64,000 nt of DNA from Lunularia cruciata (lineage: Eukaryota; Streptophyta; Marchantiopsida; Lunulariales; Lunulariaceae), in contig OX419761.1 of the NCBI GenBank assembly GCA_948567375.1, positions 60,115,089 to 60,179,088 of the forward strand, in the 5' to 3' direction. Positions 8,691 through 47,926 of the stretch are shown in pieces (the first letter of the stretch is position 1; each line of letters starts with the position of its first letter). A program made the translations under genes and the position numbers. The notes below the pieces were generated by a model, which saw only the letters and a program-made list of their open reading frames with translations, made no database searches and was not told where the DNA came from.

Positions 8691-9544
8691 AAGTTGTGGT
8701 ACCCACATTTTTGTTTTTTTCTCAAATTTTGAAGAAGAAGTGTACAAAGAAGTTGAATTGCGCCTATATGGCCGAAGAAGGCAAAGAAAAGTGTCCTTGG
8801 GATGAAACCCAAGGTAACATGACTTTGGATCATGAGGTGAGGTACTCGGAATGGCCTTGTCAGCATACAACCCAAAGTAAGGAGTCTTTGTCTCAAGGGT
8901 GCTCAACTCAAGGCAAGGACAATATAACAACTTTCCTTCGGGGCAAGACATTCAAGAAGGGACCATTCAAAAATGGCAGTAATACACATGAAGGACATTT
9001 GATAGTGACAGGAGCATGCAAGAGGTGTGATTTCTTGGTAGAAACTCAAATTGAAGAAAGACGGAGAAGGTGCAACTCTATAAAAATCAAGCTAAAGACA
9101 AAGTAATGACAAGCAATTTTCCATCGCCGTTAAGAAGTTGTCTTGCAGGAGATCATGGGAAGGGAAGTAGAGTCAAAGATGCACTGGTGTGTAGAGCGGA
9201 AATTGAGAAAGTTAATTCGGGAATCAGTAGGAAGAATAGTCCCCAACCCAAAGTGGAAGAGAGAAAGATAGGAGGTGGGAAGAAGAACTCCGAATTTGCA
9301 ATGAGAAATCATGCTTGAGGTTAGATGTTATCATAAGAATTGAGGTCTTGAGCAGGCTTTGGATCACATTCTTGGCATGGAACTGGAATGTTAGCTTTAC
9401 AGGGTTCATGATTGAGATCATCGAGAGTAAGTGTCTCAATGGCCTTGAGGAGGAAGGGAAGGGGGAAATCCGGCTTGATGGACAGAGTCAAATTGGAGGT
9501 TAGTACTCAAGAGAGAAGCAGACGCAGAGCATGGTGCCACATTC

Positions 9545-10000
9545 TTGGGAAAGGAGGAAGTAGCCAAAGAAACCCAAGAAGTGAGAGATGCCTTTTCTTT
9601 GAAGCGCACAAAGAATGGTTACAAAGTAGAGAGCTACAAGGATCTTGTCAAGAGAGGGTTTGTGAGTGCTCTAATGGCAATCTTGAAGCCGAAGAGAACG
9701 ACTTATGTGATGAAGCACCAAGCAATGTTCTTCCATAAGATGTTTGCAGGAGAGCCAATTTACTGGGCAAAGTGTCTTCATGGGAGGATGAGATAAATGG
9801 TGTGGAATTTGCGGGACAAGTCGCCTTCACATTACATTGTGCCGTTTTCAGCCCATTTCTATCTAGGGCTGAACTTGCTCAATGCGACGGAGCGCAATAA
9901 GATGGTGTTGCATTTCCATCCCAACTTAAGAAGAGATGTCGATGCGGAGGAGTCACAATACATTCTTCAGATCAAGAGCAATGATGAGTACTATGCATAG
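9545..10000 (+). pseudogene. Element X, gag-like globular region of unknown family
   Basis: Open reading on the plus strand gives a basic, globular-looking stretch with phrases such as GFVSALMAILKPKRTTYVMK and SAHFYLGLNLLNATERN. I do not recognise the family. It comes first in the coding order of X and precedes an acidic and then a coiled-coil region, as a gag or leader ORF of a large gypsy element might. An inverted copy lies at 22.7-23.3 kb. Element fossil. Confidence 0.4.
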
Positions 10001-10678
10001 ATGGGGCAAAGTGTGCAGTTGGAAGTAAGCACTCCAAAGTCAAAGAAGAGGAGTCTACAAGGAGAAGAAGAAGTAGAGAAAGCGAGACCATGGAAGGCTA
10101 GAAGAGTAAACCCAAGGAAAGAGTTGGTGGTAATTGCATCTTCAAAAGAAGAATCAGAAGGAGAAGCCAAGTGCAAGTCCAAAGATTCAGAGAGGGAGGA
10201 AGAACCCGAGTTCACACTGCAAAGTGGAGATACAAGTAGTGATAGTGACGATGGAGTGGAAATAAAATCAGTACCCAAAGAAGAGGAAGCCAAGATGGAG
10301 ACGGAGGAGAAAAGTAACTCGAAACTGGAAGAAGAAGTTCCAGAGCAAGAGGAGAAAAGAGTTACAATTCAAAGGGGAGTTTGTTCCAGACGAAAGGCAA
10401 AGTGTGGAGCGGGGCCAAGTAAGGTAAGAGAAGAGGAGGATGGAAGTTTAGGGAGCAAAGAATCCATACCTATAAGGCGACTGTGGCTTAGAAGGCAAGT
10501 GTCCAATGAGGAAGAGGTGAAGAAGGGGATAAGTCCGCAAGCTAAGGTAACTCTATGTGAAGGAGTAGAGTATTTGCGGGAGGTTGTATGCCCGTTGTTG
10601 GTGAAGTTAGAGCACCGGAAGAAGGAGATGCAGTCAAAGTGTGTGGAGGTGAAGACTATATTGCAGGTGTTAGCTTGA
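10001..10678 (+). pseudogene. Element X, highly charged Glu/Lys/Ser-rich ORF (225 codons)
   Basis: This is the longest single open frame of X. It is dominated by Glu, Lys, Ser and Arg, with acidic runs (SSDSDDGVEIKSVPKEEEAK) and basic clusters (KARPWKARRVNPRK) like a nuclear-localisation patch. No conserved domain is evident and the bulk is probably disordered. The C-terminal 50 residues (YLREVVCPLLVKLEHRKKEM) could form helices leading into the coiled coil downstream. The function is unknown. Confidence 0.45.
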
Positions 10679-10932: not shown

Positions 10933-11799
10933 GTGATCGAGAACTTGAGGAGAGAAGCAAGGAATAGAGAGGAATTCATAGAACAGAGTGACATAGCAAG
11001 GGAAAGACAAGTAGCTGAGTATGAAATCTTGAAGCAACAGTTTGCTGATTTGAGATTAGAAATTATCCATGCTACGGCAAGAGTAGCAAAGAAAGAGCAA
11101 GAGCTCAATAGAGTGATGGAGAGTGTAGAAGAGAAGAAGCAGTTCTGGTAAAGAGAGTTGACAATGAGATATAGAGAGGAAGAAAGGTTGAGAGAGTTAC
11201 TTCGCAATCAGGAGGAGAAGATTGTGCAGAAGGAGAAGGAGAAGGAAACTGTGAAAGCCGAGTTCAAAGTGAAATTGGCAATGTACAGAGAAGATTGGCT
11301 TGCAGATCAAGAACATGAGAGAAAAATGAGATTGGAGCCATTGAAGGAGATTGTGATCAAGATGCATGTGATGCTGAGTACAGAGGCCAACATGCGCATT
11401 GAAGAAACAAGACTGTACAAGTTGAAGTTTTTGGTGCAAGAGATGAGGAGGAGAAATGCAAAGGATAAGGATTTGAATGCCTTACTCATTAGTCTCAAAA
11501 CTCGTGTAGATAGAAAGATATTGGAAGTAGAAAACAATATCACAATTAGATTAGACTTAGTGAAATTAAAGATAGATAAACTTTGGAAGGATGTAAGAGC
11601 AAAACCCAAAGTAGATAACATAGGAGTGTAGATGTCTTTAGAGTTACCATTGGAGACATTAGAGAAGAGTGGGTCGGGAGATAAGGAGTTAGATAGATTA
11701 CCCACTAGTGTAATTGTAGATCAGAGTGAAGAAGCGTTAGAATTGTTAGGGGAAGTAGTAGTTGTGAAACTTGAGGATAGAGTAGTAGTGAGTGAAGTT
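10933..11799 (+). pseudogene. Element X, coiled-coil region
   Basis: Plus-strand frames here encode long heptad-rich helices, for example MTMRYREEERLRELLRNQEE followed by EKIVQKEKEKETVKAEFKVK, covering roughly 230 residues in total. Such a long coiled coil is unusual for a Ty3/gypsy gag. The coding region is interrupted at 11800 by the methyltransferase-bearing element. The remaining flank of X resumes at 21732. Confidence 0.5.
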
Positions 11800-11905
11800 T
11801 GTCGTGCGTATATACATCGCTACACAACATACATCGCTGTCAACATCATACACTATAAAAGCACAACTCACACATAAGTCATACATAGACTCTAAAGTGC
11901 CACAA
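11800..11905 (-). repeat. 106-bp segment A' at the left edge of the methyltransferase element
   Basis: Plus strand begins TGTCGTGCGTATATAC and ends AGTGCCACAA. The same 106 bp recurs at 12359-12464 with two differences. A' abuts the AGTT flank on the left and the 451-bp segment on the right. On the minus strand A starts TGTGGCAC and follows a G-rich tract, so A is probably the first part of the true LTR. Confidence 0.85.
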
Positions 11906-12463
11906 TGTAATCAGATTGCTTAACACTTTCAACTCAACTCAACTCAGATCAGTACTTGATCTGTCACTCTATAAACTGCCAACAACTGGGCACTGATTAC
12001 AGTCAAGCCACACCCACTCAAGCATAGAGAATCCAGGTGACGCTTGCCGGCCTCTGTCCACCATAGCCAGGAACTCGAAGGCTCAACATCAGAGAAGTGA
12101 GCTCTCTGGAGCTCACTTCGAAACTATACCCCCTGGACTCGAGCTAGCCCTGAAACCCTAACGGTCTCGCTGATGGCACACTTGACAGTGCAAACGGTGC
12201 AAAGTGACGGTGGGCCCCACCGTGAAGTCAGTACCCCAAACACAAAATCTAACCATCGGAAAGTAGTCCTTGAGAAACAGCTAGAATAACTCTAACTACC
12301 ATCACTGGAACTCCAGTGTCCAAGCATCTAGATGCGGAACTACAAATGGCGTGATAGCTGTCGTGCGTATATACATCGCTACACAACATACATCGCGGTC
12401 AACATCATACACTATCAAAGCACAACTCACACATAAGTCATACATAGACTCTAAAGTGCCACA
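11906..12463 (-). mobile_element. 3' LTR (A plus B) of the methyltransferase element
   Basis: In minus orientation this 558-bp LTR would run from TGTGGCAC (segment A), through a GC dinucleotide, into the 451-bp segment B that ends in CTGATTACA. It follows the tract CTAGGGGGGCGAT, a good polypurine tract. Segment B contains an 11-bp perfect stem with a 4-nt loop (12094-12119). The sister B segment at 21281-21731 lacks A. Confidence 0.7.
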
Positions 12464-12480
12464 ATCGCCCCCCTAGTTGG
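12464..12480 (-). promoter_or_regulatory. Polypurine tract of the methyltransferase element
   Basis: Minus strand reads CTAGGGGGGCGAT directly before the TGTGGCAC start of segment A. Position and composition fit a plus-strand primer site, and this supports A rather than B as the start of the LTR. Confidence 0.6.
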
Positions 12481-12632
12481 CGGTTAGGTCCCTCTAACTC
12501 CAGATAGCCATCTACTCTAAGTATATGGTATACCCTCTAATGGGCAAAGATCAGGAGGCCGGGTGCTATGGAGCCCCATCGTTAGTCGCATGTCTGCAAT
12601 CTATACCATATAAAGAATGAACTAGCTATAGG

Positions 12633-12773
12633 TCAAGTACATCTAGGACATAACCACTGTCCCTGAGGAACCACCGTGAGGGGAGGAGTCATACATGCCA
12701 TATGCCATCCTCTCGAACAGCTATCACACACTAACATAGTAGCAGCTCCACCAGAAGAGCCACATAACATACA
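12633..12773 (-). pseudogene. PHD finger at the integrase C-terminus
   Basis: The last 45 residues of the integrase frame hold a complete C4HC3 zinc-binding pattern. It runs C-x2-C, x11, C-x2-C, x4, H-x2-C, x14, C-x2-C, with signature pieces MLVCDSCSRGWHMAC and GQWLCPRC. PHD fingers commonly read histone H3 tails, especially the lysine-4 state. Here it occupies the place where chromoviruses carry a chromodomain, so a role in choosing chromatin for integration is a reasonable inference. It is the last coding unit of the element. Confidence 0.85.
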
Positions 12774-14035
12774 CCTCAAGCCTGCACGTACAAGTGCCAA
12801 GCTTGGGTCCATAGTACCATCAATGTTTGGGAGGTGGCATGGCGCACAATTGCGCACATGATCCTTCCAAACAACACCATCACGTCCTTCTAACACAAGG
12901 ACTCCAGATGGCAAAACCTCGCGCACTCTCAAGATAGTGCGGCCTGTAGAAACATCAAGTGTCGTCGGTGCTGTCTGCTGTAGATATACATAGTCGCCTG
13001 GATGAAATCGACGGATCGAGGGTCTATAACCTCCTCCTCGAATGGTAGCATAGCGTAAAGTATCTCTATGCTGAGCAATCGCCAAGTTCTCGAAGGCCAT
13101 CGGCATCACTCTCCGAAAGATCTCTGCCTGCTGAGAACATGCGCTCATCCATACATCAGGGTCATCCAAGTCCAAAACTACAGTAGCATCTCAACAAATG
13201 GCTGCAGGTAAATCTGGATCTTGTCCATAGAGTAGAAAGTATGGAGAGAAGGATGCTAAGGAGGCTTGCCGGCTGAACCGATAGCCCATGGCCAACCAAG
13301 GTAACTGGAGATCCCAATCTCCCAAGTGGCCTCTCTGCAAACCATACTTTTGCAATCCTCTCTTCACCGTCTGAACCACTCTCTCTACTAAGCCATCTGC
13401 CTCAGGGTGATCTCGGGATGTAGTACGATGATCAATCAAAGCCTTGTCACACAAGACCTGAAACTCTCCCAAGAACTCTGTACCCTGATCAGTCAAAACC
13501 TTAGCTGGTGCACTAAAATGACTAAGAACTCAATCCAGGAACGAGTAAGTTGTCCCTTCACTAGACTTGTCAGGAAGTGCCACCAACTCAATCCACTTGG
13601 AGAAGTGCTCCACCATCACCAAAACATACCGATGATGTCTTACAGTCAGCGGTAAAGGTCCGGTGAAGTCCAAACTCCAACGGTAACCCAATCCCATGAT
13701 AGGTAATGGGTGTAACTGTGGCGTAGGAGCATTGAATGATGCTCTAACTCGGTCACAAACCACACATCTGGCAACAAACTGCTGTACCTCGGTCTGCATA
13801 CCGCGCCACCAATAATGACTCTGGAGTAAGCTATATATACGCTTTACTCCAAAATGTCCTAGCTCCTCATGAGCATGACGGACCAACTGTGGTCTCTGTG
13901 ATGGAAGTGGTACTACTCGCACTCTACCATCTTCCCATACATGCAAAAGGTGTCTACCCTCCAATCTGAACCGTTTGGCTCGCTGAAGAACACGGTCTCT
14001 CTCCTGCCCCAACTGTGCCACCCACAACACCAATG
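12774..14035 (-). pseudogene. Integrase of the methyltransferase element
   Basis: In coding direction: an HHCC zinc-binding domain (HAHEELGHFGVKRIYSLLQ, then CVVCDR), the catalytic core start RWSLDFTGPLPL, a second block TDQGTEFLGEF, and the glutamate block ADGLVERVVQTVKRGL. A C-terminal SH3-like region (FHPGDYVYLQQ) then leads into the PHD finger. The family catalyses insertion of the cDNA ends into target DNA. Element fossil, broken. Confidence 0.85.
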
Positions 14036-14264
14036 CGAAGATAGTCCATCACTAAGACATCATCATGAATGTCTCGCTGAACTGTACCAATATCTTCACT
14101 CTCTGGATCTGTGACCTCAATAACTCCTCTTGTATGCGCTGAGAGAGATACCACCAAAGTCTCTGCAAATATACACAGAAAGGCCAATGCATGCCAACCT
14201 GGCACCATCTCCTCATCTGTCTCACCATGCCAACGTGCTCCGGTCTGATCCTGCTGGCTGGGAC

Positions 14265-15470
14265 ATGGGTTTCTACTCAACCCATCTGCATCACGGTTCA
14301 CCACTCCAGGTCTGTGAACAACCATGAAATCATACTCCTGTAAAATCAAAGCCCATCGTGCAAGCTTCCCTGAAAGCTTGTCGGACTCCATCAACCACTT
14401 CAGCGGCTGATGATCAGTGATGAGAGTGAAGGGGTTACCAAATAGGTAACATCGGAAATGTGCTACTGCCCAAATTGCTGCCAAGCACTCTCCCTCATAT
14501 GAACTATACTTCGCCTCCGCTGAATTGTTGGAGCGACTAGCATAGGCCACCACAAACTCCTTCTCCTCATCATCATGTTGGGTGAGCACCGCTCCAAGCC
14601 CCAACATACTCCAATCAGTGTGAACCTGAAATGGTCGTCCTCTGATCGGTCTCCTCAAAATAGGAGCAGATGTCAACCTCTCCTTGAGCTCTACAAAAGC
14701 TCTCTCCTGCTCATCTCCCCAACACCACTCCTGTGTAAGCTTGGTCAGCTTCGTCAAGGCCTTGGCAATGGCACTAAATCCTCTAACATAGCGGCGATAG
14801 AAGTTTGCCAACCCAAGGAATGCTCGCACTCTGCTCACATCCGTAGGCCGAGGAATACGTGCAATAACCTCCACCTTGGTCTGCTGAACACCAAGTCCTC
14901 CAGGGTAGATAGTGTGACCCAAATACTCAACCTGCTCATGGAAGAACCTACACTTCCCAGGATGTAATTTGAGTCCATGAGATCTCAACCTCTCAAACAC
15001 CTCCAACAACTGTCTCTATGCTCCTCCACAGTAGTGCTATACACCAAAATGTCATCAATATAGCACCGAGCAAAATCCAGTCCAGCTAGGATCCTATCCA
15101 TGATCCTCTGGAACTCAGCAGGAGCATTCTTCAACCCAAATGGTAAGAATCTCCACTGATATAACACATCCTTGCCGTGAGGATCAATAGCCCAAAATGC
15201 TGTCTTGGACTTATCTTCCTCCCTGATCGGCAACTGATGATATCCCGCTCGAAGATCCAAAGTACTGAAGACCTTTGCATGCCCAATCGCATCAAAAATC
15301 TCCTCCAGTGTAGGCATGGCATACCAATCAGCCCTGGTCTGTCGGTTGATAGGACGGTAATCTCCACACATCCGCCTATCTGTATAGTTGCCATGCATAT
15401 CTTTCTTGGCTGGCATCACTGTCGCTGATGCATACTCTCCATGTGAAATCTCCACCAAACCAGCCTCAAA
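14265..15470 (-). pseudogene. Reverse transcriptase and RNase H of the methyltransferase element
   Basis: RT blocks include RRMCGDYRPINRQT, LDLRAGYHQLPI, FLPFGLKNAPAEFQRIMD and the catalytic RCYIDDILVYS, followed by YLGHTIYPGG and RAFLGLANFYRRYVRGFS. RNase H follows with FQVHTDWSMLGLGAVL, SSYEGECLAAIWAVAHFRCY and TDHQPLKWLM, ending at VNRDADGLSRNP. These are typical Ty3/gypsy blocks in the normal order. Element fossil, broken. Confidence 0.9.
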
Positions 15471-16059
15471 AAGGTTACTACTCTGGCTCTAAATCAATGT
15501 CCTCTCCATATCACTATATCGATAAGGACGTTGGAAAATTGGTGTGTCGCTAGTCAGCTCAATCCGTATACCAGGTCCCTTTAGAGCACCCAAATCCTTC
15601 ATACTGAAGGCAAAACAACTCGTGTGACTCCTTAAGAACCTCCAAACCCTCCGTCTTTCCTCTCCAATAAGCTTGGGTCCAAGATCTGGCTCCCAAGTAT
15701 CCTCTGTAACTGTAGTAGGAGTGGAAGACGTACTGACTGGCTGCTACACTGGGCCCTTGGGAGCAATGGTGTCATGCTCCCGACCACTAGAGGTCCCAAC
15801 CTCTGTGTGAAAAACTCCCTCCACTCTGGCTGCAAGCTCCATACGTCCTTTGGCTGCATCCCATGTGGACCAAGGGTGTAATCCAAGTAGCCCACGCTCA
15901 CCTGGATGGACTCCAAGTAGACCACTCTCCCTAGTAGCTACTGGATGTGTCCCAAGAATACCATGTCCACTCGGTCCGTCGCCCCCAGCATGTGCCTGAA
16001 TCGTCTCGATAGGCACAGGGCTCACAAGTGTCCGAGTGGTGATGCCTATCAAGCGCATC

Positions 16060-17040
16060 CTACGCTGCTCTGCCAAACCAAGGCTCACAATCCAGGTCAA
16101 ACAGTTCAGGTCCATAGCCTGACCTAACACCTGACGCCTGGATGCCTCTAACACTGCTGGAACAGCGGTAATACAGGTGCAAAAACCCATCGCCCACTCT
16201 CTCTCATCAGCATTGGGCTCCACCAATTGCTGTAACTGTGAGTCCCAAACAAGTCCAGGTCCTCCCTCTCGAAAAGCATGAGAGCCTGGGAAACTCATGA
16301 GTGTGGGAAATGCAGCTCTAGGCTGTCCAACTAGGTTCACCACTGCCATAGGTGACCTATCAGCCACTACCATTGTCTGAGACTGACGCCCAACATCCAA
16401 GATATCATCAACAAGGATGTGGTCAAGTCGTTGAATCCCATCATAACTACGCTGTAGAACCTCTCTGGGTAAAAGGTTCGTCCACCAAAGACAAAGACGA
16501 TGAGCCCGTAATCCCACTTTGGCTGCATCTAACAATACAGCAGGTCCCATCCAAGAATGGACCTAATGTGTACTCGCCACCACTCTAGTGCAAGAATCAC
16601 CCATCAATGGAACGTTCTCCAAAAGGTAAGCTGGAGAAACAGACTGATGAACCTGGAGATGTCGTAGTATCCGTAACATCTCCCAAAACACACCAGAACG
16701 AGGATCCTGAAGACCCAAACCGCGGCCCGCACGTGTATGTCCCTGACATGGCCATCCAGAAATCACCAAGTGAATAGGCCCATGTCTCTCTAGGTCATGC
16801 GCCCCCAATAAGGAAATGTCTCATGGTAAGGCCTTCTGGTAACCTCTGACTGCTGACATCGGTAATAACTCTGGATACCGATAGGCCAAGTGTGCCACAT
16901 GATGTAGAGAGACTCGCCTAGCAGTCTCATCTCTCTCTACATACAAGTACCTCTGTACTCGAATACCCGCCTGTAACACCGCAGCTAGTCCGGTGCTGAT
17001 CCCACCAAACAACTCTAATAGACATATCCCCTCTACTGGA
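16060..17040 (-). pseudogene. DNMT3-like cytosine-5 DNA methyltransferase domain inside pol
   Basis: Between protease and RT the minus strand encodes the ordered motifs of a C5 DNA methyltransferase. These are motif I LELFGGISTGLAAVLQAG, motif II-like YLYVERDETAR, motif IV VISGWPCQGHTRAG with the catalytic PCQ, motif VI YLLENVPLMG, motif VIII AHRLCLWWTNLLP, and motifs IX-X (PNADEREWAMGF, then RRQVLGQAMDLNCLTWIVS). Several blocks resemble animal DNMT3 and plant DRM-type enzymes more than DNMT1. The family moves a methyl group from S-adenosylmethionine to cytosine C5. A Gly/His-rich linker (HGILGTHP-type repeats) separates it from RT. Retroelement-borne methyltransferases are known from dinoflagellates and the alga Klebsormidium, so the theme has precedent. 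Element fossil, broken. Confidence 0.88.
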
Positions 17041-17429
17041 TACTGCCAAGCAATGAGTGTGGTATCCAGAGGTGTCAAAGCAATCGCCTCTGGAGGCTCA
17101 TCCTCACACTCATCCCCTGATGGTACGAAGGCTCCACTCCAAGCCTGCTGCACCAACTGATCTGCATGCTGCTGCAATGCCTTCTCTGAACTCCACAATG
17201 GAACATCCAAGGTGGATGGAACAATCCCACTCGTACTCCATAGCCGAGTGATCTCCTCTGGTACTGGAGTATCCTCTGCATGGGCGTTCCCCTCCAACAA
17301 GTCACCAGGCCAAGTAACTGCACCGCTGAAAGCCAAAACTGATGCTGCCATGGTCCCGGACTGTAGTGAGCCAAGACTACCACTACTAAAGCGTACTGGT
17401 AGGCGACATACCCGTCCCTCACCAGACTG

Positions 17430-17850
17430 CCAACCAGGTCTATAAGAGGCTATCTCCTCCCAATAGTCAATACTGAAACCCATAGGGTATAACACTGCTC
17501 CCCCAACTAGCACATCATATGACTCAGCTATCGTCGCAATAGCCTGAGCTCTCACCACCGAGCTATCAGTCGGATGACCAGGCTGAACCTGGACAACAAG
17601 CTCTCCACGTGTGATGTACTGTGTCGAACCACCACCAAGAGATGTCTGGATCTGAAATGGACACCTCTCCACATCGGTCTTCCGTAACTCCAGACCAACA
17701 ACTGCAGCCTTCCCCAACATAAGGGGCTGCGCACCAGAGTCTAACAAGACTCTCTGTGGTGTATAGACCTTCCCTGAAGGTCCCACCAAACGAAAGATCC
17801 CCCTCTGGTTATCCAATAGGACAACACCAGGTGTAAACCGCGCTCTCTCA
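17430..17850 (-). pseudogene. Aspartic protease of the methyltransferase element
   Basis: The minus strand contains RVLLDSGAQPLMLGKAAVVG, the active-site D-S-G-A block of retroviral-type aspartic proteases, near position 17741. Downstream come flap-like and C-terminal hydrophobic blocks (YDVLVGGAVLYPMGFSIDYW). It lies in the same open stretch as the beginning of the methyltransferase, so the two were probably released from one polyprotein. Element fossil. Confidence 0.75.
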
Positions 17851-18639
17851 AAGGCCGGTCTAGCTAGCAACTCCTCCAGTCTAGCCGCTGCTGCCTGCCA
17901 TAAACCACTGGTCGCTGAACGGATCCCATGCTCCTCAACCAAGTCAGCTCTACTACCAACCACCTCTGCTCTAGTAGTAGGAACCGCACCATCCCTACTC
18001 TCACACAACGTGGCAGCCAACCGGAACACTGGGGCTGGGTCAACTTCCAATGTAAACATGTCACTGGCTGAAAATAAAGGATGCCGCATAATCAGCTGAG
18101 CCGCCCCCAACATCATGCTAGACTCAGTCGGTGTAGCAGGTGGCTGACTAGCAGGTAGTCCATCATGTACTCCATCACCACCTACCACACCTGCACTGGG
18201 ACGTCTAGGAACCATGGATGTCGTCTGCAATGCCTCAGATAGCGTGAAAGACTGGGGAAGTCTGACCTGTCTCCCAACCTCTCCTCTCTGTGGGTCCAAC
18301 TCCACTGATGCTCCTCTAGGCTTTGGAGCACGTACTGCACTCCTAGTCACTGCTGCAGATGCATCCACCTGTGCTGCTCCGCACATGAAGTCCAAAGCAT
18401 CTCTATCACCAGCATATGAGGTGGAAGCCTCAGCACCCGAATCTGATCTCCTTTGAGCAATAGCCATACTAGCCAATCTCTGCTCCAACTGCTCAATCCG
18501 AGTAGCCATAGCTGTGTCAGAAGTAAGGGCAGGTACCGCACCCCTACTAGGTGTAGATTCTCTACCACCACCTCTACCACCTCGTCCTCCATGAACTGGA
18601 GCTCCTCTACTACCTTCCATAGCAGCCCTACCACTCCGT

Positions 18640-20030
18640 AACTCCGGGTGTAGGTCAAAACACCGGTCACTAGTATGACCAAATCTATGGCAATGCTCAC
18701 ACTGCCTCTGTGCTGGCTGTGATGCACCAGAGGTATCAGGTCCGCTGCCCTGAGTACACTCTCTCCTATGGTGAGGTCCACCACAAGTCCAACAAGCAAC
18801 ACCACCACTCAGTGGCTGCTGTTGACCCGAAAATGAGGGTAAGGGTCTAACTCCACTAGGCCCTCCACTCGCTCCATAGGATCTGGGCTATCCACCCTAT
18901 CCTCGAAAACCAACTGGGCGTGGTGCACTCTGTTGCACTCTAGAAGAAGTCACAACCGTGGATGAGGTCTCTCTACCAAATCCAGCTGTCACCACTCTCT
19001 CCTCCACCATGTTGAGCTCAATACGCTCAGCCAAACCAAAGACTACTGCCAAAGTGGGCGAAGTAGCCTGCAACAACGTAGCATCACGAACTCTACGTCG
19101 CAACTCCCTGTCCAGTATCCCATACCAAAACTGGACTGCTTGGGCCTCAGTAACTCCCTGAGTGAAACTGATCAGCCGCCTCATGCGAGTGTATGCCTCG
19201 CGTAGGCTCTCTCCAGCCTTCCGCTGGAACTCTTGCAAGCTCCTCAGCTTGTCAGTCCGCACTCCCTGGTAGTTCTGCCTCAAACATAGGAAGAACTCAA
19301 CCATAGGGTTAAACCCCGGTACCACACCACCTCCTGCAGCGGTACCTCCACTCGTAGTAGCACTATCTCCAGCTAGTGCACCTCCACTAGCTCCACCAAC
19401 ACTACTCGAGCTAGAACTCGTAGGTACAGCCGACCTACTCCTGGCCACCGAACCTGAAGTGATGGAGACATAGTGTGGAGACCAATACTGTCTCCATAAC
19501 TCAATCTCCTCCAAATGAGCTCTCCTGAACTCATGGTAGTCGTCCATTGGTGGACCCTCCAAGTGCTGAAACAACCCCTTCCATGCCATGAAGGGTGTGA
19601 ACAAAGTCGGGTTCCGCATCTGCTGCAGATCACACCAACTATCAAACTCCTGGATGAAATCATCCAACTCAATAGTACCCACTGTACCAGAGTAACGCCT
19701 AGGGCCTTTGGAGGCCCCATAAATCTCGTCCATGTCCCACAACAACGGTGCGGACACACCAAGTGCACTCTCAACTGAATCAACTCCTGTGTCGAACTCC
19801 AACTCAGAGTCAATCTCCTCCCTCACTGGGACCTGAGATACAGGCTGATACCGAGCACCACTCCGAGTAAACCCACTGCGTACTGCAGGGCTAACTCCTC
19901 TGGAATCTCCAAAGAACTCCGTCGTGACCACGTAACTGCAACAGCAAACCCGAACCACCAACTGCAACCGCAAGTCGCAACCGCAAGTATCCCACCAAGT
20001 GCCAATACCACCACGTGCCAACACCAACTA
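18640..20030 (-). pseudogene. Gag with two CCHC zinc knuckles (methyltransferase element)
   Basis: In coding direction there is a Thr/Gly/Ser-rich N-terminus and a gag capsid-like block (GTIELDDFIQEFDSWCDLQQ, LREAYTRMRRLISFTQGVTE). Two zinc knuckles, CWTCGGPHHRREC and CEHCHRFGHTSDRC, follow at about 18660-18796. Gag proteins package the element RNA, and paired knuckles are usual for nucleocapsid regions. Element fossil, broken. Confidence 0.8.
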
Positions 20031-20039
20031 AAACACCAC

Positions 20040-21280
20040 CTACTAATGTAACTCTAACCGAGATAACTACACTAGAAGAAGGGCAACCTGTAACCTGCCA
20101 TCATAACACGCACTCTCACGGTCTGCAGGTCATCACTTCCTGCCTCACCGGAGAGAAACAAAGGTAGTCTGATTGGTCATCACTCCAGCCTCACCACCGA
20201 GAGCACGCCAGAGCACCAACGCTCAAAAGTCAAGGCACCTCACACAAACATGGTGCACAAACAGGAAGCAGAGAATGGAGGGGATCCAATCACAAGAAAT
20301 CTAAACGAAAACCCTCCATCTCATAACACAACACGAGACTGACTCTGCCACCATTTGGCATTTGACATAAAAGTAGTTTGTATCTAAGTCCTAAGCTACC
20401 AGGATCACCAAGAATGGGATCAAACTGCCTCTCCTAGCCAAAGCTACATGTGTATAGATAACAGTGGCACAGTCACTATGACAACAAGTGAGGGTGGACC
20501 AGTTGGCTAGGGCACCAGTCTAGGAACAAGAGATCTAGGGGTCAAACCCTGTTGCGCACAATCTAGCAAGAAAGGCAGATTTTGCCAACCAATGACCAAG
20601 ATCTACACTAAACTAGCTAGCCTCACGCCAGCAAGCTGGCCCTTCTGGCCCTTCTAGGCCTTTGTAGCCTCTCATAGCCCACAGCCCTATGCCTCGAAGC
20701 CTCTAAACGCCAAAATTTAGCCAAATGAGGCCTTTCTTGTTGCCACTTCGAACCTCCTCCAAAATTGGCGAAACTTCTCCAAATCTGCGAAACTCCTCCA
20801 AACTAGCGAAAGTTCTCCAAATCTGGCCAAACAGCGAAACTCCTCCAATTCTGGCCCAAAATCTGATGTAAAATCTGACGTAAACCCTAAAGATGGATGT
20901 CCGCCAAATCCCCCGCTAACTTTCCACTCGAGCCAAATTGACAAAACGGGTTTTTCCAAATCACAATTTCATGAGAAGAGCTTTCCAACTCCACCTTCAA
21001 TTTCACTTTCTGAGCCCAACTCGCAGCAAATTGGTCCTGCCTTCACCTCCTGAGCTCAAAATCACAACACTACTCAAAAATTGCTCCTTCTTTGCTCAAA
21101 ATTTGGCCAGCGCTTCCGCACACCGTCCGCCTAACTGCCAAATTTGCATCAACTACACGAGCTTCTGCACACTAGGGAAACATAGAACCTGAATCAAGCT
21201 ACCATGATCCACCGAGCTTGGAGATACCACCAACACTCAACGTTCCTGCACCCGATTTCCCCCTGATTTCACTTCTCTGA
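20040..21280 (-). other. Long untranslated leader of the methyltransferase element
   Basis: About 1.2 kb between the 5' LTR segment and gag without a convincing open frame. It contains a cluster of short direct repeats (variants of CGAAACTCCTCCAAA at about 20755-20850). Next to the LTR end the minus strand reads TCAGAGAAGTGA, which shares only ATCAGAG with the usual initiator-Met primer site, so the primer-binding site is uncertain. Confidence 0.5.
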
Positions 21281-21731
21281 TGTAATCAGATTGCTTAACA
21301 CTTTCAACTCAACTCAACTCAGATCAGTACTTGATCTGTCACTCTATAAACTGCCAACAACTGGGCACTGATTACAGTCAAGCCACACCCACTCAAGCAT
21401 AGAGAATCCAGGTGACGCTCGCCGGCCTCTGTCCACCATAGCCAGGAACTCGAAGGCTCAACATCAAAGAAGTGAGCTCTCTGGAGCTCACTTTGAAACT
21501 ATACCCCCTGGACTCGAGCTAGCCCTGAAACCCTAACGGTCCCGCTGACGGCACACTCGACGGTGCAAACGGTGCAAAGTGACGGTGGGCCCCACCGTGA
21601 AGTCAGTACCCCGAACACAAAATCTAACCATCGGAAAGTAGTCCCTGAGAAACAGCTAGAATAACTCTAACTACCATCATTGGAACTCCAGTGTCCGAGC
21701 ATCTAGATGCGGAACTACAAATAGCGTGACA
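21281..21731 (-). mobile_element. 5' LTR segment B' of the methyltransferase element
   Basis: This 451-bp segment matches 11906-12356 without indels. There are 13 differences and every one is a transition. It starts TGTCACGC on the minus strand at the AGTT target flank and ends CTGATTACA next to the leader. The 106-bp segment A that precedes B in the other LTR is absent here. Confidence 0.9.
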
Positions 21732-21855
21732 AGTTACTTCAGGATTGAAAGCCGAGGAAGAAGTAGACATTGGATTGGATTAGAAATAGTTTTGAGATTT
21801 GAAGAGGTAGATATGAAGAGTTATATTGTCAGTTTGTATCTGCAGGTTAGAAGAG
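21732..21855 (+). mobile_element. Element X, resumed 3' flank with polypurine-like tract
   Basis: Sequence to the right of the inserted element continues X on the plus strand and ends in GGTTAGAAGAG, a short purine tract directly before a TGTTAGG LTR start. Confidence 0.5.
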
Positions 21856-22675: not shown

Positions 22676-22679
22676 AACT

Positions 22680-23783
22680 TACTTCCAACTGCACATTGTG
22701 CCCCGTCTGCGCGTCATACTCATCATTGCTCCTGATCTGAAGAATGTATTGCTACTTCTCCACATCGACATCTCTTCTTAAGTTGGGATGGAAATGCAAC
22801 ACCATCTTATTATCCTCTGCCACATTGAGCAAGTTCAGCCCTAGATAGAAATGGGCTGCAAACGGCACAATGTAATGTGGAGGTGACTTGTCCCGCAAAT
22901 TCCATACCATCTATCTCATTCTCCCATGAAGACACTTTGCCCAATTAATAGGCTCTCATGCAAACATCTCATGGAAGAACACCGCTTGGTGCTTCATCAC
23001 ATAAGTTGTTCTCTCCGGCTTCAAGATTGCCATTAGAGCACTCACGATCCCTCTCTAGACAAGATCCTTGTAGCTCTCTACTCTATAACTATTCTTTGTG
23101 CACTTCAAAGAGAAGGCATTTCTCACTTCTTGGGTTTCTTCAGCTACTTCTTCCTTTCCCAAGAACATGGCACCATGCTTTGTGTCTACTTCTCTCTTGA
23201 GTACTAACCTCCAATCCAACTCTGTCCATCGAGCCGGATTTCCACTCTTTCCTTCCTCCTCAAGGCCATCAAGACACTTACTCTTGATGATCTCAATCAT
23301 GAACCCTGTAAAGCTAACATTCCAATTTCATGCCAAGAATGTGATCCAAAGCCTGTTCAAGACCTCAATTCTTGCGGTCACATCTAACCTCTAAATTGCA
23401 TGATTTCTTACTACAAATTTGGAGTTCTTCTTCCGACTTCCCATCTTTCTCTCTTCCACTTTGGGCTGGGGACTATTCTTCCTACTGATTCCCGGATTAA
23501 CTCTCTCAATTTCCTCTCTACACACCAACACATAGTGTAAAGAGGAAATCTTCTCTACGACTCTACTTCCCTTCCCACAATCTCCTGCAAGATGACTTCT
23601 TAATAGCGATGGAAAATTGCTTTTCATCGCTTTGTCTTTAGCCTGATTTTTATAAAGTCACACCTTCTCCATCTTTCTTCAATTTGAGTTTCTACCAAGA
23701 AATCACACCTCCTGCATGCTCCTATCATTGTCAAGTGTCCTTCACGCAAATGACCGTCATTTTTGAATGGTCCCTTCTTCCTT
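22680..23783 (-). mobile_element. Inverted partial copy of element X coding region
   Basis: The reverse complement of this block matches 8956-10024 at about 88-90% identity with a few small indels. It abuts the tRNA-Asp inverted repeat on its left and element 1 pol on its right, with a short filler-like join near 23780-23790. It is a broken fossil of the same region that holds the gag-like frames of X. Confidence 0.85.
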
Positions 23784-23784
23784 T

Positions 23785-26700
23785 TCCTTTGCTTCTTACC
23801 TTCCACGTAGGTGATTGTCATATTGAAGCATTGTTGCCACTTTGCCTATGAAATTTGGCAACAAGATAGATCCTTCTATGTCTCGAGGTAGACTAAAGGT
23901 TCATGGTTTGTCTCTACTACAAATGCCTTCTTGCCAAAATAGTGCTTCCAATGCTTGGTTGCAAGAACGATGGCCAACTCTTCTCATTTTGTGATGTGGT
24001 AGTTGCACTCTACCGGTAACAACTTTCAAGAGAAATATGCAATTGGATGCCATCCGTCATGCCACTCTTGTTGTAAGATTGCTCTTATTGCTACGCTTGA
24101 TGCATCTATAGCCAACTTGATTGGACATTTTGGGTCATACCACTTCAAGATTGGTGCATGTAGCAAGGTGACTTTGAATTCTTGAAAGGCCAACTCTTGT
24201 GCGGCTCCCAATGTCCACTTCTTCTCCTTGCCAAGTAGTGCCGTTAAAGGCTGTGCAACCTTGGAGAAATCCTTGACAAATCTACGATAGAATGTTGTCA
24301 ACCCCAAGAAGCTCTTGAGTTGAGTCTGATCTTCTAGGGCACTTTATTTTTTAATGACCTCAATTTCATTTGTCAATACTTGAATGCCCTCTGCACTTAC
24401 TCCATGCCCCAAGTAGTCTACTTCAAACTTGCCAAACTTGCACTTTGAGATTTTGGCATACAATCAATTCTGTCTTAGAATCTAGAGGACTTCTCATAGA
24501 TATTGTTTGTGTTCCTTCATTGTGCTACTGTATACTAAGATGTCATCCAAGAAGACAATAATAGACTTATCCAAGTATGGACAAAATATGTCATTCATTA
24601 GACTCTTGAAAGTGGCAGGTGCATTGGTGAGGCCAAAAGGCATCACAAGATACTCAAAGTGGCCAAACTTGGTTTGAAAGGCAGTTTTGTACACATCCTC
24701 CTCTGCAATTCATATTTGATGGTAACCACTCCGCAAGTCCAATTTGGTGAAGTATCTTGCTCCATGGATTTGATCAAACAAGTCATCCATGCAAGGTAAG
24801 GGGTATTTGTTCTTCACTATGTGCTGATTGAGACCCCAATAGTCAATGCACATGCGCATTGTATCATCCTTCTTCTTCACAAACAAGACAAAAGCCCCAT
24901 ATGGTGATATGCTAGGTTAGATGAACCCTTTATGCAGCATCTCCTCAATTTGAGTCTTACACTCCTCTAACTCATGGGGTGATAGGCAATATGGGACCTT
25001 ACAAGGAGGTGTCTTCACTAGGAGTGTCTTGATTTTATGATCTACTCTCCTCTTTGGTGGTAATCATGAGGGTAGATCATTGGGAAAGACATCTTGAAAC
25101 TCATCCACCACATCTTTCAATTTCTCAAGAATTTGTCCATCAAGTTGTGCACTCTAGACTTCTCTTATTAGACCCATGAAACATCTATTGGTCTTATAGA
25201 TAGATGCCGTCTCTATGATATACAAAGGCAATTCTTGCTTGTGTGATTTTTATTTAACCCCAATGATTGACCATTGGTAGGTTCTCACTACTTTCTTCCT
25301 CCAATCTACCATAGGGTTGTAATTTTCCATCCATGGCATGCCTAAGATTGCATCATAATGAGCTATTGCTCAATTCAATTGCTTCTTGATATTCTCTTAG
25401 AGAGAGTGTTACTTGTCTAGGTAATGATTCAATACTCTCTTTTTGCCCGTTAGGTAACTCTACTTCTTCACTATCATCTCTCTCTAGATCCATTCCTAAT
25501 CTTATTGCAACAAAGCGAGACAAGAATTTCTTTGTTGCTCCCAGATCTATAAATACTCTCACTTGATTGCCTTCTAGGACTCCATTTACAACAATTAATT
25601 GTGAGGTTGCCTTTTGGGACCTTTGCATGTTCATCTTCTTCCTTCTGTTGCTTCTTTGCTTCCTTATTGAGCCAATAAGGCCACAAGGTACATTTAATGG
25701 CAATCTTTGTTTTCCAAAGGGATTTCCACCTCCTCCTCTTTAGTGCGCCTCTCCATGTTGTTCAAAGATCACCTATATGAAGGCTGAGGGTCTTTAGGGA
25801 AACAAGCATGACAATTGGTAGATATATGCCCAATACGGCCACAATTGTAACAATGAAATTGTTCTCCTTGAGTTCCTTCTCCTAGTGAGACTCCATCTCT
25901 TTGATCTTCTACCCATCCATGCTCTCCTTGATGCGGTTGTGCTCCTCAATCTTGAAATCAAAGGTTTCCCAATTCCATTGGTACTGGTCCACCCATGTGT
26001 GGCAGTTTTGCCTGATAATATTGAGGTGGAGCTACTCCTCTACCTCCACCCAATGCCTCTGCTATTCTTTGTGCACAAGCAATGGCTTCAAATACCGTGT
26101 GAGGATTTTGCACCATGACTTCTTGGCAAATCCGCTCCTTCAACCCTTGTTTGAAATTGTCGAGAGCTTTGCTAGACTTATGTTGGTTATTGCGACTTGT
26201 AGATCTAGAAATGCCTCCACATACTCTTGTATGCTATTCTTCTATCTCAATCTCTATAGTTGGATTTGAGCCATCTGCATGGAATCCACCGGTTGGAAAT
26301 CCTTCAGCAATCCTTCTTGCATTGGTGTCTACGTGACCTCCCTTCTCTCTGCCAACATGGATCATTCCCAAGCATTGTACCATGTGATGGCTTTATTGAT
26401 CAAGTACCCACATGCAAACACGCCTACAGAATGCTCCATGATCTCTATTGAGAACAATCAAAAATATCGATTCATTCTCAAGATCCAATTTTCCACTACT
26501 CTCATCATATACTGCTCCTTGTAAGGCTTGATGTTGTAGGTCTTCTTCATCCGGAGTAGCAATGTGGCTTCATTATTGATAGTGTTCATAGGCACAGGTG
26601 CCTCTCCAAGTATTTTAGTCGTAGGTATTGGGTTTTGAGACGGCTCTTCTTCTTGCATTGCTTGATCATTCTTGAGGATATGCACTTGATTTTGTAATGT

Positions 26701-27384
26701 CTCCATGGTCATCTTAATCTCTTGAAATTCATTCAACATCCCTTGCATTTCTTGCACCAACTCTTGTAATTGCGGATCCATGGTTCCTACAACACTTGAT
26801 TGTTAATGTCTACTTCAATACAGAGTCAATATGATCACTCTAGAAGTCACACAAACTATTGAAACTACCATTGGGAACTTAGAAGCTATCACTTGTTGAT
26901 AATACTCCTCACCAAAATTCCTAACCACAAAATCTCTAAACACCACTTTTGGTCTCACTACATAACAAATTTCTACTTGAATGTTGAAAGGAAGAGGATT
27001 TGGGATATTCATTTCCATAACATCATAATAGAACGTAGGTTGTCAAATCCTACTCTCTCTATCATTTACCACCATAGGTAGAATCACCGAGTTTGGTGAG
27101 TTCATCACCTTGTCCATGAATTTTGCTCCAAAGTGATAAACTAGCAATACTCTAATTTGCTCACGTTGGATGTACATAACCTTGATATGGAATGGATTCA
27201 AGAATGGAAAGCTAGGTGTGGGAAATTTTCCTCCCGGTGCATCCATCCCATCTGCTCTCTAAAGTCCTTCCTAAGTCTAGCAATTACTCTGTTTTCTACC
27301 TCAAATTACTCAATTTTAGTAGTTCATGTTCTTCCAAGACGGGTGATCCACTCTCTTGGTCTAAAATAGTTGCTTTGATACCAT
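23785..27384 (-). mobile_element. Element 1, gag-protease-RT-RNase H part of the outer chromovirus
   Basis: In coding direction: gag with a coiled N-terminus (MDPQLQELVQEMQGMLNEFQ) at about 25790-26785, protease region with VFIDLGATKKFLS near 25550, RT with [20 protein letters not shown] and [12 protein letters not shown] at about 24370-25080, and RNase H (LAIDASSVAIRAILQQEW) to about 23790. The minus strand next to the LTR reads ATGGTATCAAAGCA, an initiator tRNA-Met primer site. About 600 bp of pol, present in the related copy at 42.98-43.57 kb, is absent where element X lies. Broken in many places and old. Confidence 0.88.
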
Positions 27385-28104
27385 TGTAATACTCTGAGGA
27401 CAAGAGAAGAGAGAAAACACAAATTTCACACTCAATCATCCCATGCTCCAAAGGAGCACCTTTTCTTTATTATATAGACAAAGAGGATCTCCTCCAAGGA
27501 AGCTCCACCAAAGGATTAGGCACATAGATAGGTGACATGTCAGCAAGCTCTACCCTTGGATTACTTACTTGGATGGGTGACATGTCAGTCCTGGTCCTAT
27601 TTGGTTGGTCAAACAAGCTTTGACCAGATGGAATCTTTTAAGGAATCTTCTTGTAGGAATCTCACAATCATGTGGGTGAGGTACAATTTGAAAGCTCTTG
27701 ACAAAACAAAGTAGGGGGAGGGAGGGCTAACCGTTTCATCATTAGGGAGGGAGGAATCTGCACATTTTTGAGGCCTAATTCATACATTTCGGCCTCCAAA
27801 ATTGCCTTCAAATATTTCAAGCATATTTTGGTTTTTACTCTATTAGTAGAAGTCTCCTTTTGGTGAGACCTCTTTCTGATCTGTTTAGTACATCATGTAT
27901 AACATCCATCCAGATGTTATCAAACCAATTCTCACCTTTAAATCATATGTCTAGCTATTAGCTCTAAGGTTTCAAATCTATTTTGGTTTCTACCCTATTA
28001 GTAGAAGTACTCTGATCTAATTTTACCATCATATATAACATCATTCCAGATGTTACCAAACCAAATTTCACATCTAGATCATATGGCTAGTTCTTGATAT
28101 TACA
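27385..28104 (-). mobile_element. 5' LTR of the outer chromovirus (element 1)
   Basis: 720-bp LTR with termini TGTAATAC...ATATTACA, directly preceded in plus coordinates by the complement of a tRNA-iMet primer site (TTTGATACCAT). It is nearest to the LTR at 7024-7768. Flanking base pairs of the two LTRs do not match, so either the target duplications have decayed or the locus has been rearranged. Confidence 0.88.
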
Positions 28105-29036: not shown

Positions 29037-29622
29037 TGTAACACTCTAAGGATAAGAGAACTCTTCAAGAGAGAAAACCCAAATCTCACACTCAATCCTT
29101 CGATGCCCCAAAGGATCACCTTCTCTTTATTATATAGCAAAGAGGATCCTCTCAAAGGAAGCTCACCCTTGGATCATATACATTGATTGGTGAACTATCA
29201 GCAAGCTCCATCCATGGATTAGTTGTTTGGATGGGTGGCATGTCAGTCCTTGTCCTATCTAGTTGGTCAAATAGGTTTGACCAAAGGAAATCTTTAAGGA
29301 ATCTTCTTGTAGGAAGCTCAAAATTGCATGGGCAAGGTACCATTGGAAATCTCTTGATGAGATGAACCACGGGGGGAGAAGGCAAGTGTATTTCCCTTAA
29401 GGAAATGGAATCTTCCAATTTTTGAGGCCTAATTCATCCATTTAGGCCTCCAAAAATAGCTTTAAAGTTTTTAGGCTATTTTTGGCTTCTGCCCTATTAA
29501 TAGAAGTGATCTTTTGGTGATACTTCTATCTAATATAAATTCTCCATCATGTGTAACATCCCTTCAGATGTCACCAAACCAAATTTCATCTCTAGATCAT
29601 CTATCTAGCTATTGGTATTGCA
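29037..29622 (-). mobile_element. 3' LTR of element 2
   Basis: 586 bp, plus-strand termini TGTAACAC...GTATTGCA. It is shorter than the 720-745 bp LTRs of elements 1 and 3 because it ends after the first of two related blocks those LTRs carry. Confidence 0.9.
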
Positions 29623-29719
29623 AACCTCCCTCCTTTTAAGATGCAACGTCCTAGTTGCAACGTTGTTGCTCAAAAGATTTCACTAACATTGGTGCATGGG
29701 TCAAGTTGGTTGCTGGCTC

Positions 29720-29870
29720 CCATGTTGCCTCATACAAGGGTTACCCTTTCCAATGTACCAAGTATCCCACACATGGATGGCGAGTACCTCAAATGCGCTT
29801 CTTGAGAATACGTTTGACTTCATACTCCTCTGTGTCATCAACCAAGGTTGAACAAGGTTGACTTTCTTGG
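29720..29870 (-). pseudogene. Chromodomain at the integrase end of element 2
   Basis: The minus strand encodes EEYEVKRILKKRI followed by the rest of a chromodomain (related to VDYLVQWKGYP in element 3). Chromodomains at this place are thought to steer integration toward histone-marked chromatin. Element fossil. Confidence 0.7.
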
Positions 29871-30196
29871 ATGGGAGAGAAGTGGCATGACCGAGGAGCA
29901 TATCTGCATAATAAGGAAACATGAAACACTGGGTAGATCTTCATATGTGGCAGTAGCTCAAGATGATAGGCCATTGCTCTTATGCAACAAAGGATGGAGA
30001 AAGGTCCAATAAAATGAGTTTTGAGCTTATGAGGACCAACTAACTTGAGGTTGGTGGTTGATAGCCAAACTTGATCTCCCACATTGAACTCCATGTGTTG
30101 GTATTGTGCATTTGCATATTGCTTCTGTCTATTTTGGGCAATTTGTAACCTATGTTTGGCGTGCTCCACCCCTTGTTGAATTCTAGAAACAAAAGA

Positions 30197-30263
30197 CGTT
30201 TGGTGGCTACCAAGGTAGACACTATCAACAATTGATAGTGTCTACGTTGGTAGCCACCAAACG
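30197..30263. repeat. Near-perfect 67-bp hairpin inside element 2 integrase
   Basis: Two 32-bp arms separated by 3 bp, with one mismatch. The arm begins CGTTTGGTGGCTACCAA. Elements 1 and 3 do not have this palindrome at the same place, so it arose in this copy by a local inverted duplication. Confidence 0.9.
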
Positions 30264-34180: not shown

Positions 34181-34786
34181 TCCTACACATGATCAATATT
34201 CACTTGCTACTTTCTACTTCAATTGAGAGTTAGAATGATCACTTGGGAGTGTGCACTAACTATGTGGACTACAATAAGGACCTCAAAGGCCATCACTTGT
34301 TGATAATATTCCTCACCAAAATTGCGGACTACAAAACCCCTAAACATCACTTTTGGTCTAACTATATAATGGATTTTTACTTGCATGTTGAAAGGGTGAG
34401 GATTTGGTGCATTTAGATCCATAACATTATAATAGAATGTAGATTGTCAAATCCCACTCCTTGTTGTATACTACCACAGGTAGAATCACCAGATTTGGTG
34501 AATTCATCACTTTGTCCATGAATTTTGCTCCAAAGTGATAAACTAGCAATACTCTCATTTGCTCGTGCTAGATGTACATAATCTTGATGTGGAATGGATT
34601 CAAGAATGGGAAGCTAGGTGTAGGAAATTGTCTTATGGTGCATCCATCCCATCTGCTCTCTAAAGCCCTTCCCAAGTCTAGCAATTGCAATATGTTCTCC
34701 ACCTTGAATTATTTAGTTTTAGTTGCTTGTGCTCTTCCAAGAGGGGTGATCCACTCTCTTGGATTAAAAACTCACTTTGATACCAT

Positions 34787-42255: not shown

Positions 42256-42259
42256 TATG

Positions 42260-43340: not shown

Positions 43341-43449
43341 CATGACATTCCGCTAGAATGGTGGTGCGTAATTCTAGGACATTTGGGATCCATAATCTGC
43401 CATCCCAAAAGGTGAGTCCTTGGGTGCTGGTGACACCTTTGGATGATTG

Positions 43450-47921: not shown

Positions 47922-47926
47922 CTTAT

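Follow-up and report, generated by a model that had tools for sequence, protein, structure and literature searches.

Retroelements carrying a cytosine-5 DNA methyltransferase (MTase) have been reported from dinoflagellates (SymbioDIRS-Dnmt3 and SymbioLINE-Dnmt) and from the alga Klebsormidium nitens (KnitGypsy-Dnmt3) (PMC5890265), as the initial annotation of the present locus had noted. KnitGypsy-Dnmt3, described in 2018 (de Mendoza et al., PMC5890265), is a gypsy LTR element with an unrearranged DNMT3-related MTase whose key residues are conserved and which is under purifying selection; the legend of Fig. 4 of that paper gives its repeats a DIRS-like order, for which the part of the paper available to us offers no mechanism. 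The dinoflagellate elements are likewise retroelements with cytosine MTases, SymbioDIRS having an enzyme of DNMT3 class and the repeat order A-coding-B-A-B (PMC5890265); however, they are DIRS (tyrosine recombinase) and LINE elements rather than gypsy elements, and lie outside the trees presented here. A 2019 paper, in its available text, described methylase-encoding transposons as absent from land plants, 'such as tracheophytes', and built its argument on loss (PMC6338049). Among the open-access matches listed, judged by title and the start of the abstract, no paper on DNMT-bearing gypsy elements of bryophytes was found.

Here, we have analyzed a stretch of 64,000 nucleotides from the liverwort Lunularia cruciata (the window), which contains a Ty3/gypsy-type element with an MTase between protease and reverse transcriptase (RT). 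Compared to KnitGypsy-Dnmt3, this element has a land-plant host and at least 100 copies, belongs to one older clade, and has its integration ends and 4-bp target-site duplications resolved. What is new is its reach into land plants, an apparently single old origin of the MTase with one relocation, a conserved stop that leaves the MTase with Gag, and integration ends that are permuted. The combination of an MTase with apparent insertion from DNA circles cut at a built-in site had been hinted at earlier in one alga only. The presence of methylase-bearing transposons in bryophytes, with at least 100 copies in one genome and a constrained domain, runs counter to the 2019 statement (PMC6338049).

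The element and its methyltransferase

The features of the window copy, with coordinates of the window, are as follows (the element lies on the minus strand):

11800..21731, minus: whole retroelement copy, 5'-TGTCACG...ACGACA-3' in its own sense, ends set by the 4-bp duplication and by identical termini elsewhere in the family
11796..11799: target-site duplication AGTT (plus strand; AACT in element sense)
21732..21735: target-site duplication AGTT (plus strand; AACT in element sense)
21283..21731, minus: repeat A1, forming the 5' terminus after integration, not preceded by B, 97.3% identical to A2
18897..20027, minus: gag open piece (Retrotrans_gag 0.0085, below cut-off)
16821..18887, minus: open piece with CCHC knuckles, protease (DSGA near 17740) and MTase motif I (stop 16821-16823 included)
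16068..17030, minus: DNMT3-class cytosine-5 MTase domain, in-frame stops at 16821-16823 and 16563-16565
15738..15746, minus: conserved stop UAG (15744-15746) followed by CAGCCA, between MTase and RT
14908..15701, minus: reverse transcriptase (PF00078 7.5e-21 and 6.6e-5 on two pieces; also aligned to L071, a relative described below)
14332..14637, minus: RNase H (PF17917 8.5e-37)
13404..13904, minus: integrase, H2C2 zinc domain and DDE core (PF17921 3.3e-18), in-frame stop at 13530-13532
12639..12773, minus: PHD finger closing the RT-integrase frame (PF00628 9.6e-12; nearest solved structure CHD4, 2e-17)
12465..12476, minus: polypurine tract CTAGGGGGGCGA immediately ahead of B1, with a similar sequence at the same position in L071
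12359..12464, minus: repeat B1
12350..12363, minus: B/A junction, CGACAGCTATCACG in this copy, the full palindrome GACAGCTGTC in 12 of 19 copies and in L071
11908..12356, minus: repeat A2
11800..11905, minus: repeat B2, 3' end of the integrated copy

The window copy is dead and damaged; it belongs to a large family of Ty3/gypsy type that also has young members. Its frame is unchanged between gag and the beginning of RT, with gag separated from the next piece by stops at 18897-18899 and 18888-18890; the RT region has an in-frame stop at 15489-15491, and the frame shifts near 15000 and returns near 14000, the integrase part being further cut by stops at 13530-13532 and 13191-13193. On these broken pieces the integrase core scores rve 8.1e-5 and 0.016, each below cut-off. 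The protease piece alone has no Pfam hit and was assigned by its DSGA motif and by PF13650 in the relatives P0028 and P0037. RT stands ahead of integrase with RNase H in between, and the DDE integrase has an H2C2 domain and a short target-site duplication, relatives carrying PF00665; full LTRs are not found at both ends of integrated copies. The name Ty3/gypsy is retained on the RT/integrase lineage despite these permuted LTRs.

The initial annotation had placed the motifs of a cytosine-5 MTase in the right order on the strand of the gypsy element, and the motifs are indeed present in this order from about 17030 to 16068: I (LFGGISTG), IV (PCQG), VI (ENV), VIII (AHR..WWTN) and X (LGQAMDLN). 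They are spread over three open pieces, with motif I in 18887-16821, motifs IV-VI in 16820-16563 and motifs VIII-X from 16562 on, and Pfam DNA_methylase matches the middle piece alone at 3.8e-8. DSGA and motif I share 16821-18887, which agrees with the earlier view that protease and MTase start in one open stretch. The breaks inside the domain are two in-frame stops rather than frameshifts.

With X at the two stops, the full domain matches 187 proteins at E<=1e-3 (best 2.9e-174); sources among the 120 matches listed include Calypogeia fissa, Sphagnum, Marchantia polymorpha and Riccia sorocarpa. The closest solved structures to the window domain are DNMT3A/B (human DNMT3A 5.5e-8), and a profile of the family against the PDB gives DNMT3A 3.1e-26, 4onj 8.5e-13, DRM2 9.9e-10, M.HaeIII 4e-8 and M.HhaI 8.5e-8, where the 4onj chain carries only the name 'DNA methyltransferase' and is presumably a plant DRM. 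The alignment of the window domain to DNMT3A covers motifs I, IV, VI, VIII and X in the standard order, unlike the rearranged DRM. In an alignment of 26 MTases (window numbering), G151 W152 P153, E197, H236 and W242 T243 N244 are invariant and C154 Q155 nearly so. Among 40 relatives, PCQ is kept in 37, ENV/EHV in 36, the HR..WTN block in 37, the motif X block in 34 and motif I, by a strict pattern, in 26. By sequence comparison, the domain is a DNMT3-class cytosine MTase, nearer DNMT3 than other C5-MTases.

Constraint on the domain was measured as pooled pN/pS over 24 of 28 copies (L115, L160, L164 and L168 were left out, their RT being out of register), which is 0.29 for the MTase and 0.245 for RT. 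In the 13 copies without an MTase stop, the values are 0.43 and 0.285, which may mean that the MTase is less constrained than RT. The source genome also has a host DNMT3 gene at C7:31989816-31990166 (L196), found by a genome search with a human fragment at 41% identity; it has at least two exons, and its motif IV is PCQ, versus PCN in human DNMT3A. Separately, residues 634-807 of P0225 (Tetrabaena socialis) form an MTase segment without PCQ within an RT-RNaseH-MTase-integrase-PHD polyprotein, where the domain seems to be kept without its catalytic cysteine.

The MTase is the last domain of a Gag-protease-MTase frame, which is followed by a UAG and then by RT-RNase H-integrase-PHD in the same frame. 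The initial annotation had put the MTase inside the pol region: its place between protease and RT stands, but a conserved stop separates it from RT and leaves it with Gag and protease, so that it is not simply part of Pol. The stop between MTase and RT is TAG in all 24 copies in register, and TAG followed by CAGCCA occurs in 25 of 28 copies (one has CAGCCT and two read out of register); only 8 of the 28 are open for 429 codons when read past the UAG. Damage as an explanation of the stop at 15744-15746 was therefore rejected, since it is the family's usual end of the Gag-protease-MTase frame. L071 has TAG CAATCA at the matching site, and both its stop and that of the family fit UAG-CAR-YYA, which we take to be the read-through context of the tobacco-mosaic-virus type. 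Fourteen of the relatives, taken from 38 found (P0243-P0256, 1252-1451 aa), all end 86-146 aa past the MTase. The MTase is continuous with RT, with no stop, in 16 proteins (P0133, P0148, P0160, P0166 and P0176 among these), and P0261, P0265 and P0266, two of which are Marchantia gene models, likewise run from MTase to RT stop-free.

L071 (CADCWO010000201.1), a contig of 9285 bases, was assigned to a cyanobacterial bin; its first and last 127 bases are identical, indicating an assembly circle of 9158 bases. It has a Gag-knuckles-protease-MTase frame of 1355 codons from stop to stop, a single TAG, and then RT-RNase H-integrase-PHD for 1047 codons in the same frame. L071 is a complete relative, a eukaryotic element misplaced in a cyanobacterial bin. 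With P0036 coming from an Obscuribacterales bin, bins of this kind apparently include contaminating sequence from plants or algae. The other 36 of 37 bacterial and archaeal loci gave weak or short matches and are probably ordinary MTases; 70 viral-contig loci, also with weak MTase matches (the best-scoring at 37% over about 140 residues), are probably ordinary MTases of phage type.

Relatives and the origin of the methyltransferase

Relatives of the element were found in Calypogeia, Marchantia, Riccia, Sphagnum, Closterium and Klebsormidium. The protease-MTase-RT order of the window thus recurs in other plants, and land plants (liverworts and Sphagnum) do carry an MTase element. The initial annotation had suggested that this might be an undescribed land-plant lineage; no paper on such members was found among the open-access matches listed, but the kind of element was already known from K. 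nitens (PMC5890265), and the enzyme does not look like a new capture. A K. nitens protein, P0176, which may be the published KnitGypsy-Dnmt3, has the order protease-MTase-RT-RNaseH-integrase and falls with the present family in one MTase clade (98/96). It differs in having MTase and RT in one frame, where a UAG lies between them here, and the PHD finger found here has no counterpart in P0176, which is a partial record.

Among 241 proteins with any of six domains, 30 have the order RT-RNaseH-MTase-integrase-PHD and 16 have the MTase ahead of RT. The former group, which includes P0225, shares the RT family and the PHD finger with the present element, and nine of its MTases fall inside the element clade, but its MTase sits between RNase H and integrase. 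In a quick LG+G4 tree of RT, the 24 RT-RNaseH-MTase-integrase proteins that were kept fall into a single group of 28 rows (SH-aLRT 99) whose remaining four members have no MTase hit, and the position of the MTase changes once on this tree. Those four (P0171, P0179, P0185 and P0204, from Haematococcus) are possible losses of the MTase.

Two trees were built for the MTase. The first used hits of at least 255 aa without P0001, P0002 and P0225 (91 rows), thinned to 68, to which seven rows were added (the window, L071, human DNMT3A and four bacterial MTases). In this tree, which has no host DNMT3, human DNMT3A lies at the unresolved base of the element enzymes, and the RT-RNaseH-MTase-integrase enzymes split at the base into groups of 24 and 6 rows, with P0206 apart. 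For a more careful tree, 38 long-branch, degenerate or near-duplicate rows and two bacterial ones were removed and the host DNMT3 was added, giving 36 rows without Closterium (both rows removed) and without Tetrabaena. Here, 32 element enzymes of both orders, P0176 included, form one clade (98/96), whereas the host DNMT3 and human DNMT3A group together (98/95) apart from it, with two bacterial rows as outgroup; the host and human sequences are the only non-element DNMT3s compared, the other comparison rows being bacterial MTases. The nine RT-RNaseH-MTase-integrase rows form a group only if P0115, which is an MTase-only fragment, is included (98/98), and holding the nine alone is not rejected (p-AU 0.128). 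In the first MTase tree and in the RT tree, the window sequence lies near Calypogeia. The tree placement called for in the initial annotation accordingly yields a DNMT3-class enzyme and a single clade of element MTases that includes P0176 in the careful tree, the base of the first tree being unresolved.

On these trees, it looks like one old acquisition of the MTase was later followed by a single relocation to between RNase H and integrase. The membership of P0176 in the same MTase clade likewise makes a shared, older lineage look more likely than a new capture. The picture of 2018, an acquisition in Klebsormidium, thereby shifts to what looks like a single old shared one. The published view, in the part of the paper available, was that the K. 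nitens lineage had acquired its enzyme independently (PMC5890265), from which it would follow that the bryophyte elements captured DNMT3 separately and came to share its position by convergence. This would fit the differing placements of P0176, which is sister to the RT-RNaseH-MTase-integrase elements in the RT tree (84) and lies with P0133 in the MTase tree (89/84), as well as the location of human DNMT3A at the base of the first tree; however, with all 32 element MTases in one clade and a single change of position on the RT tree, independent capture is improbable.

A search of the source genome (565.8 Mb, 74 contigs) gave 100 scored places, the window included, that match the full-length MTase at >=95%, and 43 of them have no stop within the MTase; the 100 are the best of 14,890 first-look candidates and represent neither a copy number nor an intact fraction. 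Copies with the same domain order, for which the initial annotation had proposed to search, are therefore present in the same genome, and a chance insertion at one locus is ruled out. That the MTase is a stray piece of the host DNMT3 confined to this locus might be suggested by the broken state of the window copy and by the host owning a DNMT3, but this reading is virtually impossible and was already refuted by the existence of these copies: the 100 scored places and several genera have the MTase at the same position, and the element MTase lies in one frame, whereas the host DNMT3 has at least two exons and falls outside the element clade.

Permuted repeats and integration ends

Read in the sense of the element, the window copy has the order A1-internal-B1-A2-B2, with A of 449-450 bp and B of 106-107 bp, which is the DIRS-like A-coding-B-A-B arrangement of the KnitGypsy-Dnmt3 kind. 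Both expected ends were read in 20 more copies, chosen in list order; another 20 were read at the 3' end, and nine of these at the 5' end as well. Of the 25 copies that start with A and have a terminal B, 23 carry exact 4-bp duplications at the same termini (16 of 17 and 7 of 8). This count omits C10:48731458, whose 3' end has no terminal B and at which no duplication was found when measured at B1, as well as C8:23958081, C2:50867802 and C1:27926477 (5' end not found) and C11:901502 (A1 shortened). No B was present directly ahead of A1 at any of the 26 resolved 5' ends. Among 38 3' ends, 31 are B-A-B, three are B alone, and B-A-B-A-B, B-A-B-A-B-A-B, B-A-[88 nt]-B and B-A only occur once each; three of the 41 copies examined have none of these ends. 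The 4-bp duplication is also found in two of the three B-alone copies, in both multimers and in the copy with the aberrant 88-nt join. In this last copy (L194, C2:30628208), an 88-nt 5' internal piece lies between A2 and B2 with the duplication intact, and the insert would be a fossil of a faulty end joint.

Twelve of 19 copies have the palindrome GACAGCTGTC at the boundary between B and A; it is altered in the other seven, the window copy included, and complete in L071. The joint between A and B reads CTGATTA followed directly by TTGTGG in 17 of 19 copies (one or two with a base change), with two extra bases in the window and one in one copy. A pattern scan for A/B joints gave 27 within two mismatches of the window form, three of them exact, which suggests further forms. 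Outside the coding regions, the window element and L071 have three short blocks in common in the same order: after the PHD finger, at the start of B and at the B/A boundary.

Within 16 copies, A1 and A2 differ by 0.7-3.6% (median 1.5%). The differences affect 47 of 608 CG sites, 40 of 821 CHG sites and 10 of 2145 CHH sites, with 16 transversions. An excess of differences in CG and CHG is the expected outcome of decay under host CG and CHG methylation; the strong decay of these copies therefore indicates that the MTase does not prevent host silencing.

Proposed life cycle and possible role of the methyltransferase

Drawing on these sequence features, we consider it probable that the element makes its MTase at the Gag level, reads through a UAG, passes through circular or concatenated cDNA that is cut at an internal palindrome, and likely methylates that cDNA. 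RT-integrase would be made through stop-codon read-through at the UAG, and the MTase, lying ahead of the stop, should be made with Gag rather than at the Pol level and be taken into the particle. Reverse transcription would proceed as in ordinary LTR elements, from a putative primer site after A and a polypurine tract before B, with a linear B-A-internal-B-A as product. The ends of this cDNA would then be joined into circles or concatemers, creating the A/B joint, and integrase would cut the palindromic B/A junction inside the LTR, inserting the DNA with a 4-bp duplication as A-internal-(B-A)n-B. A one-LTR circle would give A-internal-B, larger circles or concatemers would give the multimers, and a faulty joint the 88-nt variant; an end-joined circle cut at one B/A palindrome would give exactly A-internal-B-A-B. 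If both strands were cut between CA and GCTG, the result would be processed CA ends with overhangs of two bases, such as retroviral integrases produce. Tandem cDNA instead of circles could yield the same ends.

The integrases of foamy virus and HIV-1 cleave a palindromic LTR-LTR junction in 2-LTR circles, a DDE integrase thus giving processed ends there as well (PMC1180852, PMC1905944, in the parts available). Their palindrome, however, is the joint between two LTRs, whereas the one described here is internal to the LTR, at a distance from the ends of the cDNA, and the permuted order is kept. Counting against the circle model are the two of 25 copies without a duplication and the one more copy without a terminal B; counting against the palindrome is its being complete in 12 of 19 copies only, and one conserved 15-mer alone is weak, as 14 of 15 positions were reached in two of 60 shuffles. 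A cycle of DIRS type with a tyrosine recombinase, or recombination after integration, might instead have produced the permuted repeats, the A-coding-B-A-B order having been reported for DIRS-type elements and for K. nitens (PMC5890265, available part). Against this, the ten pieces scanned with Pfam have rve/H2C2 and no tyrosine recombinase among their hits, and later recombination would not give exact 4-bp duplications at 23 of 25 permuted ends, which makes such an origin highly improbable. With integrase acting on circles as the preferred reading, the permuted copies suggest that an LTR element can use circles, which are usually regarded as dead ends, as its normal integration substrate.

As for the MTase, methylation of the element's own cDNA or circles, before or at integration, is the likeliest role and the simplest use, although it is the weakest step of the explanation; the new DNA would then resemble host DNA or start out silenced. 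The authors of the 2018 paper proposed cDNA methylation, and CG methylation by SymbioDIRS enzymes was shown in yeast (PMC5890265, available part). The initial annotation had likewise inferred self-methylation that would evade or tune silencing. It is somewhat unlikely that the enzyme instead serves the host or self-restraint by silencing new copies and so making many of them tolerable to the host: the CG and CHG bias between A1 and A2 looks as if copies were heavily methylated after insertion, but host enzymes account for it without an element MTase, and the constraint on the domain argues for a benefit during retrotransposition. That the MTase methylates the RNA of the element, or has lost catalysis and is now a structural or nucleic-acid-binding domain of Gag, is unlikely. 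Its location on the Gag side of the stop would suit such a role, as would the absence of PCQ from three of 40 relatives and from P0225 and the K. nitens enzyme having given no DNA methylation in yeast, a result its authors call inconclusive (PMC5890265, available part); yet most of the 40 relatives keep the catalytic motifs, and the nearest enzyme, DNMT3, acts on DNA.

A more tentative reading, which we would not favor over a narrower one, is that a lineage of green-plant LTR elements moved its integrase site into the LTR, that only circular or concatenated cDNA integrates, and that a Gag-level DNMT3-class enzyme methylates this free DNA before it encounters the host. If that is true, such a lineage would parallel the DIRS cycle but with a DDE integrase, and would have epigenetic marking built in. 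With many young copies at hand, the question of why a silencing enzyme is retained by a transposon becomes directly testable.

The PHD finger is similar in sequence to the PHD fingers of CHD4 and of KMT2-type proteins. A measure of CpG depletion (0.48 in the element, 0.42 and 0.66 in the flanks and 0.82 in L071) is not discriminating. No tRNA or Rfam family reaching its gathering score was found within the 64-kb window. At the empty site of the window element, an open acidic frame continues across to a stop (11560-11799 and 21732-21855), and the segments 8954-10029 and 22678-23779, which flank the element, are inverted copies of one another (88%). The window holds other, distinct RT-coding retroelements at 23789-28104, 29480-35365 and 40547-47925, as well as many related repeats of 0.4-0.75 kb that are apparently nested in one another.
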